Positions 8,393 to 49,791 of a stretch of DNA of 64,000 nucleotides are shown piece by piece (position 1 is the stretch's first letter; each line of letters opens with the position of its first letter). This DNA is from Fibrobacter sp. UWR4 (GTDB lineage Bacteria; Fibrobacterota; Fibrobacteria; Fibrobacterales; Fibrobacteraceae). The notes beneath the pieces are model-generated. The model did not search any database, had not been told where the DNA came from, and saw nothing but the letters and a program-made list of their open reading frames with translations. The stretch lies in assembly GCF_003149045.1 (NCBI RefSeq), contig NZ_QGDU01000003.1, forward strand, positions 1-64,000, written 5' to 3'. The position numbers and the translations under genes were made by a program.

Positions 8393-8500
8393 AAGGGGGG
8401 CACACCCCCCTTGGAACCCCCAAAAAACAATGCGCCATCGCAAACGAAGTTTGCTTAGCTTTTGTTTTTTGTTTGAGGGGCTCTGAAGTGCCTCCTCAAA
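8393..8500 (-). repeat. Dispersed three-hairpin intergenic element (copy A)
   Basis: Between rpoN and hpf. Hairpins in order are AAGGGGGG-CACA-CCCCCCTT (8393-8412), GCAAAC-GAA-GTTTGC (8440-8454) and TTTGAGG/CCTCAAA (8472-8500). Read as reverse complement, it aligns with each unit of the tandem repeat at 39719-40018: a GAGG hairpin, then a CAAA-A-CAAAAG stretch, a middle hairpin, GCGCATT-GTTTT, and a terminal G5-6/C5-6 hairpin. The first stem could also terminate rpoN transcription. No protein is encoded. Confidence 0.6.
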
Positions 8501-8569
8501 AGCGGCATTTTTTCTCTGGTAAGACTGTTCCAAGTTGGAATATGGTTCGGACGTTTTTTGCAAATAAAC

Positions 8570-43389: not shown

Positions 43390-43563
43390 TAGTACGAAAA
43401 TCAGATATTCTCAAAATTCATACTACAAAAGCGGGGCTTATGGTGGTCTACACTAGTACAAATTTCCCCTAATGAGTGAATTCATACTAGTGTTGTCCTT
43501 GCAGGAGAGGTATCCTGCTGAAAATCGTAGTATGAAAACGCTTTTTTGCGGAAATTCATCCTA
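43390..43563. repeat. Array of three 36-bp inverted-repeat units (TAGTA...TACTA)
   Basis: Units at 43390-43425, 43454-43489 and 43528-43563. Each starts with TAGTAYRAAW and ends with ATTCATACTA (the last has TTCATCCTA); the 16 interior bases differ. Unit starts are 64 and 74 bp apart, about six and seven helical turns. Between units 2 and 3 there is a further hairpin GCAGGA-GAGGTA-TCCTGC (43501-43518). The array fills the convergent gap between the PerR-like gene and trkA; no coding sequence is seen. Confidence 0.8.
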
Positions 43564-49310: not shown

Positions 49311-49525
49311 TGTCACTGAATTGAAAAAAAAGTTTGTTTAGTGATAAAAATTTTGAATAAAGTAACTAAAATTTAGCCTATGTCACGGGAATTATGTCAC
49401 TAAAAGAACCGAACGGCTGATTTGGTGACAATTTGAGTTGGCGTAAACTCTTAAAAATGTTAGTTTGATTTTGTACAACATAATATTTTTGTTACTAACT
49501 TTAAAAAAAGAGCCTTTTGGTGACA
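49311..49525. repeat. Array of three 36-bp inverted-repeat units (TGTCAC...GTGACA)
   Basis: Units at 49311-49346, 49395-49430 and 49490-49525. Each starts TGTYACTRAM and ends TTTRGTGAYA (for instance TGTCACTAAA and TTTGGTGACA), with 16 variable bases in between. Unit starts are 84 and 95 bp apart, about eight and nine helical turns. Partial half-sites (AGTAACTAAA at 49361, TGTCAC at 49381) lie between units 1 and 2. No gene is present here. Confidence 0.8.
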
Positions 49526-49575
49526 AAAAATATCCAAAAAGCTTGCTGCGCGTTCTGAATAGCTACATTTGAGAA

Positions 49576-49791
49576 TCATGCCCTCCAATCTGCAGTCAAG
49601 AATCCTTCATCTGCCGGCGTCGACGGCCAACAACCGGATGCGTAAACGTAAATTTCCGCCAAGTCCGCATCGAGCATCACCTTTACCCCGCGGATGGTAT
49701 ATATCCGCGACTTGAGCAAATCCTCGTCTATCAGGGAAAATCCGGGCTTTTTCGGCGCGACGGCCTCGGCCGCACTGGCCGCACCAGTTTG
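49576..49791 (-). pseudogene. ORF6N-domain protein, N-terminal fragment without start or rest
   Basis: Minus-strand frame reads KSRIYTIRGVKVMLDADLAEIY, the hallmark of the ORF6N DNA-binding domain of phage and host proteins. It is open from 49791 to the TGA at 49578-49576, but begins right after a TGA (49794-49792) without a proper start codon, and shifts into unrelated sequence after LAEIYVY, where intact members continue to the C-terminal half. It is a relic at the left border of the defence island. Confidence 0.7.

Follow-up and report, generated by a model that had tools for sequence, protein, structure and literature searches.

The EDxHD homing endonuclease I-Bth0305I is a dimer whose target, at nearly 60 bp, is very long (PMC3943268). 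The enzymes of this type that have been described are those of phage and intron homing. REPIN-RAYT systems, as presented in two reports, consist of intergenic chromosomal palindromes that are paired with one gene, are present in many copies per genome and are lineage-specific (PMC3116915, PMC3733652). Several sites for one protein, TnsB, are found at the ends of the transposon Tn7, and PDC-S68, a candidate of the PADLOC collection, is represented by models of approximately 1200 residues. RAYTs are Y1/HUH transposases, which act on single-stranded hairpins. The system described in the following, which couples a predicted nuclease with arrays of phased palindromes, shares traits with each of these, but fits no family tested. 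It is apparently undescribed: no account of such a nuclease-array system, or of the array geometry (already thought new in the initial annotation of this DNA), was found in the literature searched, which covers few subscription papers or preprints.

The window, i.e. the whole stretch of 64,000 nucleotides of Fibrobacter sp. UWR4 that was analysed, contains two three-unit arrays (table 1); its genome is G000, other G numbers denote Fibrobacter genomes of a 61-genome genus set, and C numbers denote contigs, of G000 unless another genome is named. The array of interest (hereafter the window array) has a DNA-alkylation-repair-like gene (PF08713) on one side and the beginning of an MBL-fold gene on the other, the latter recognized by eye from an HxHxDH motif and giving no match in Pfam. 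All three units are 36 bp long, built as 10 + 16 + 10 and placed exactly as the initial annotation had it, with spacings of 84 and 95 bp, i.e. 8 and 9 helical turns. In the shuffling test that had been named there as a possible refutation, the intergenic DNA concerned was dinucleotide-shuffled 2000 times: a three-unit 36-bp array of equal score never appeared (0/2000), and any three-unit array at all arose in 1 of the 2000; the first array of the window, which is that of the fur/trkA site, is equally beyond chance (0/2000). Conserved linker motifs, absent from the initial annotation, follow unit 1 and precede unit 3 in five type-2 arrays. Across the whole of G000, the type-2 arm pattern gives seven matches, all of 36 bp (the window array, a three-unit array at C1:249569-249782 and a single unit at C3:70671), with none for the reversed pattern, and type-2 arms recur as 36-bp units in 9 of the 61 Fibrobacter genomes, again with a reversed-pattern control of 0. 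Type-1 arms recur as arrays on contigs C24, C31, C9 and C22.

Table 1. Coordinates, in the window, of the palindrome units of both arrays and of associated features.
Feature	Position	Strand	Remarks
Palindrome unit 1	49311..49346	no strand	TGTCACTGAA-16-TTTAGTGATA, type-2 arms
Palindrome unit 2	49395..49430	no strand	TGTCACTAAA-16-TTTGGTGACA, type-2 array
Palindrome unit 3	49490..49525	no strand	TGTTACTAAC-16-TTTGGTGACA, type-2 array
Linker motif TTTTGAAYAAAGTAA	49351..49367	+	Common to type-2 arrays of different loci; five-locus alignment, family consensus
Linker motif, second copy	49468..49485	+	Before unit 3; five-locus alignment; also called as repeat
138-bp direct repeat, left copy	49486..49623	+	83% identity to right copy, ~C3:70668-70805; defence island between
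MBL-fold hydrolase gene, 5' remnant	49578..49623	+	Intact behind orthologous array in G024, G071, G056
First array (type-1 arms), unit 1	43390..43425	no strand	
First array (type-1 arms), unit 2	43454..43489	no strand	
First array (type-1 arms), unit 3	43528..43563	no strand	
Array-less site	8398..8516	no strand	Orthologue in G052 is a multi-unit array (C8:54.5-54.8 kb)

In G024, G071 and G056, the same array is found ~50 bp upstream of the MBL-fold gene, and it is absent from the orthologous site of G052. Its arms are 95% identical in G024 and G071, as compared with ~76% for spacers and linkers (p 8e-4 each), these two genomes being close to each other. The type-2 arrays of G000 are classed as orphans: four nuclease genes were found in this genome, and type-2 arms go with none of them; a cognate type-2 nuclease gene is present in G009, G041 and G056. 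Some orphan arrays could reflect genes on missing contigs, many of the genomes being MAGs. Judged from sequence, the window array counts as a solo array that is conserved, orphan in G000, and it very probably belongs to the arrays of the nuclease family considered next.

The gene that partners the arrays encodes a protein of ~270 residues; on contig C31, a 270-residue member is flanked by two near-identical type-1 arrays, and a homologue in G009 has type-2 units ahead of it. The protein matches no Pfam or NCBIfam family and is predicted to be a Vsr/EDxHD/TnsA-like PD-(D/E)XK nuclease on the basis of middling fold matches, of conserved E, PD and EH residues and of a match to a PADLOC domain. 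In the AlphaFold model (pLDDT 90), an N-terminal helical hairpin tipped by a small beta-sheet is joined to a C-terminal domain, for which the catalytic domain of I-Bth0305I is the best structural match (Z 8.8, 2.6 A over 89 residues), with further matches to TnsA (Z 8.3), Bax1 (8.1) and Vsr (6.8); a Foldseek search with the predicted fold gave no match at E <= 0.001. Residues E168, P197-D198 and E213-H214 are invariant or nearly so in the family, and the nuclease domain matches the C-terminus of PDC-S68 in 20 of 20 members, with E down to 1.5e-28. An AP2- or integrase-like nature of the N-terminal beta-sheet was also considered and was abandoned when the domain folded alone gave generic coiled-coil matches only. 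The expectation that the two arrays of the window belong to one family of sequence-specific proteins of diverged specificity was borne out; each of the nuclease genes has its own arms. A recombinase as their owner, which had been suggested as well, gives way to the predicted nuclease.

The gene is present in 8 of 25 relatives and in 43 of the 61 genomes of the genus, with up to 8 copies each. A scan of genome contigs yielded at least 579 confirmed candidates, the best 80 of which come from Fibrobacter, Treponema, Lachnospiraceae, Clostridiaceae and near relatives, and the nuclease-array system appears to be widespread in gut and rumen bacteria. A phage- or plasmid-borne family was rejected: there are three phage records (one covers 84% of the query) and seven plasmid records, which match the nuclease domain only, and none was confirmed in IMG/VR. 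The plasmid matches, from Hymenobacter, Rhizobium, Vibrio and others, are proteins with the annotation AAA family ATPase that share the nuclease domain alone.

When 108 non-redundant genes of the family with at least 450 bp upstream were surveyed for three or more same-arm palindromes within 700 bp upstream, 85 were found to have them, against 1 in shuffles, 0 in gene bodies and 8 downstream. These upstream arrays hold 3-8 palindromes, every lineage has its own arms, and arrays are found at Treponema and Lachnospiraceae loci too. The half-site cores measure ~10 bp, with half-site centres 27-30 bp apart inside the unit, and the centre-to-centre spacings are of ~53, 63, 74, 84, 95 and 106 bp. 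The whole-turn spacing initially read from the window array extends to 236 spacings in the 85 arrays, with a period of 10.55 bp (R 0.92, Rayleigh p ~1e-33, one spacing per array), a pattern that indicates proteins bound along the same side of duplex DNA. At L343:6943-7150 (C9:83.9 kb), next to a tRNA-like region, lie three units with GGTATAAA/GGGATAAA-like arms and spacings of 64.5 and 107, which are possibly another solo array. Short repeats of the types TCCTTCGCTTCGCTCAGGATGA and GAGGGGCGCTGAAGCGCCTCCTCAA occur in several of the same intergenic regions (L018:9798-9850; L257; L364). A match of the de novo scan at L309:13858-14100 (C1:53.9 kb) was discarded as an ordinary 105-bp tandem repeat in three copies, unrelated to the arrays.

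How arms and protein are matched can be approached through their joint variation. Arm similarity follows protein identity (Mantel r 0.46, 0/999 permutations), and residues 41-66, which form the beta-sheet, retain a partial r of 0.228 after removal of overall identity (0/999), as compared with at most 0.122 for any other stretch of the protein; this treatment of the correlation controls shared ancestry only partly. Among pairs 55-90% identical, residues 41-66 alone reach r 0.78 against 0.55 for the whole protein, and the correlation is weak in distant pairs (r 0.11 below 45% identity). Particular arms also occur together with their cognate gene: TACATACT (11/3/4/43, p 9e-7), TGTCACTA (3/0/6/52, p 0.002) and AAGGACTA (p 0.045, the gene class being loosely defined). 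Among the genomes examined, type-2 arms occur without the cognate gene in G000, G007, G011, G024, G071 and G073. At queA, the arrays of G000 and G052 align through their linkers and their arms differ together, TAGTATGAA in the one and TAGTGCAAA in the other, matching in both cases the genome's own nuclease. G052 carries a close homologue of nuclease P0001, taken as its orthologue, with arms TAGTGCAAA; this pattern has 38 matches over about ten loci of G052, as compared with 2 for the control and 3 in G000. At the fur/trkA site, the arm switch between G000 and G052 is only partial. The cognate co-occurrence, the arms that change together and the conservation of arms show co-adaptation and constraint at the level of sequence: arm sequence and nuclease evolve together, and solo arrays usually lie where a cognate nuclease occurs. 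From them we strongly infer that the nuclease binds the palindrome arms.

With these features at hand, the described systems can be set against the present one. Like REPINs, the palindromes are intergenic, chromosomal, numerous in a genome, lineage-specific and paired with one gene; unlike them, they combine 10-bp arms with variable 16-bp centres and whole-turn spacing, and are paired with a PD-(D/E)XK domain, all of which speaks for double-stranded DNA, and membership in REPIN-RAYT was rejected, the partner gene being no Y1/HUH enzyme and having a predicted PD-(D/E)XK fold with no Pfam or NCBIfam match. The TnsA-like fold and the several protein sites per array recall Tn7, but most genes are flanked by an array on a single side, and paired arrays are direct instead of forming inverted ends; a transposon with array ends was rejected on the same observations (0 inverted, mostly no array downstream). 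The match to the C-terminus of PDC-S68 concerns the nuclease domain, whereas the much shorter proteins of this family have another N-terminus. A CRISPR or guide-RNA array was rejected, as the ~10-bp arms alone are conserved and the 16-bp centres vary, and an RNA element likewise, with no Rfam family at gathering score and two weak sub-threshold matches near the first array. EDxHD homing endonucleases provide the best structural match to the predicted C-terminal domain, and the spread of a gene into its own site is the mechanism favoured here; the nuclease genes considered here, however, are stand-alone chromosomal genes with phased palindromes upstream and solo arrays elsewhere, and they lie beside a complete array instead of interrupting their own target, as EDxHD genes do.

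The candidate footprints of homing are genomic only, and consist of array-gene-array arrangements and of filled and empty sites. At about nine loci, the gene stands between two arrays; these repeat the array in full, at 77-98% identity, and their orientation is direct in every case (0 inverted). At queA, an array-gene-array is found in G000 and a solo array in G052, where the surrounding backbone is mostly 85-88% identical to G000 and where a nuclease gene lies a few kilobases away, at a place where G000 has none; such solo and filled sites would result if an array-gene unit had inserted itself where a solo array stood. In the mechanism proposed, a nuclease dimer would bind each palindrome with one beta-sheet per arm, and phased dimers would line up along the same side of the DNA and cooperate. 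Less certainly, the array would serve the nuclease gene in two ways, as its control region and as its site of homing or attachment: where a solo array is broken or nicked, repair from an array-gene copy would lead to array-gene-array, and recombination between the direct repeats would remove the gene and restore a solo array. Copying of type-1 solo arrays between loci was also considered and set aside, no clear linker homology being found. The explanation as a whole, from the window array as a solo copy of a recognition array of this nuclease-array system to the mechanism just outlined, is given a probability of about 0.5; homing-like, array-directed spread of the gene, taken as a part of it, is put forward tentatively, at somewhat less than even odds.

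The main point against a purely selfish reading is that the arms of solo arrays are more conserved than their linkers, since cutting should favour broken arms and conversion would homogenize the linkers too; furthermore, the array adjacent to the gene would get cut as well unless it were protected. Constrained arms with drifting linkers speak for the strongest rival, a guard or storage role, in which the arrays would hold the nuclease ordered and inactive until it is released or redirected, as a suicide nuclease, upon phage attack or chromosome damage, and in which the private arms would stem from an arms race with decoys. The many arrays per genome (38 units in G006), the up to 8 homologues with different arms in one genome, the likeness of the nuclease domain to a defence candidate (PDC-S68) and the near lack of the family in plasmids and phages are also in its favour. 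Nevertheless, solo arrays persist where the cognate nuclease is missing, and the direct repeats of array-gene-array loci are left unexplained, so that this role is considered rather unlikely.

The position of arrays directly upstream of nuclease genes, the multiple phased sites, which suit cooperative regulators, and the short distance between the window array and the MBL-fold gene in the three genomes mentioned above would also be expected if the nuclease were a transcriptional regulator and the arrays were operators of its own gene and of the members of a regulon. The target in the window would then be the MBL-fold gene, with a likely promoter shortly after unit 3. Solo arrays, however, are enriched between convergent genes (10/19 vs 27/139, p 0.003; 9/18, p 0.007, after removal of an orthologous duplicate), and convergent intergenic sites have no expected promoter, which disfavours promoter operators as the general function and makes this explanation improbable.

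The placement between convergent genes would suit instead a role in chromosome organization or as recombination hotspots, the nuclease starting breaks or looping DNA and thereby aiding exchange of the adjoining DNA, with the island of the window having entered there. This defence island (~49624-70667, i.e. to C3:70667) lies between the two copies of the 138-bp direct repeat and carries genes for a type IIG restriction enzyme, AAA_13 (PDC-S06), Shedu SduA, GmrSD, RAMA/DUF4357 and DUF1016-YhcG; the repeat begins at unit 3, in the right copy too, and extends into the MBL-fold gene. Immediately within it, at 49640-49760 on the minus strand, the start of an ORF6N domain (IYTIRGVKVMLDADLAEIY) was read by eye alone as a relic. 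The array is most likely older than the island, since it precedes an intact MBL-fold gene in G024, G071 and G056, and the island was most likely inserted later, using or duplicating unit 3. The initial suspicion of an integration locus is therefore right in that an insertion happened there, and is not supported in taking the array as a marker of the island. One island only is in evidence, and no recombination tract stands out around the C1 array, so that a hotspot is quite improbable; the C1 array at first looked much better conserved than its neighbours, a difference that faded in a finer profile.

A further reading takes the palindromes as miniature repeats that some other enzyme mobilizes and that stand beside nuclease genes by habit only. 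It would agree with their being intergenic, multicopy and palindromic like REPINs, but is very improbable in view of the confinement of the arm-protein correlation to one domain, of the cognate co-occurrence and of the helical phasing. Chance palindromes can practically be dismissed, given the shuffles and the arm-pattern controls, both at zero.

With about an even chance, the nuclease and its arrays represent a chromosomal system of a new class, whose nuclease would read DNA through a beta-sheet and co-evolve with phased arrays spread over the genome, giving each lineage private addresses and allowing several systems to coexist in one genome. The gene family is widespread, has no name in Pfam or NCBIfam, and brings along its own candidate binding sites. 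Nature supplies about a hundred pairs of protein and site, and the specificity signal lies within ~25 residues, so that a recognition code can be tested directly. Solo arrays that match the resident nuclease also offer an unusual example of protein and DNA co-evolving across a bacterial chromosome. Homing-like spread, if it is real, would be a new means by which nuclease genes persist; a guard role of the arrays, if that is the right reading, would be a new form of defence or self-recognition.
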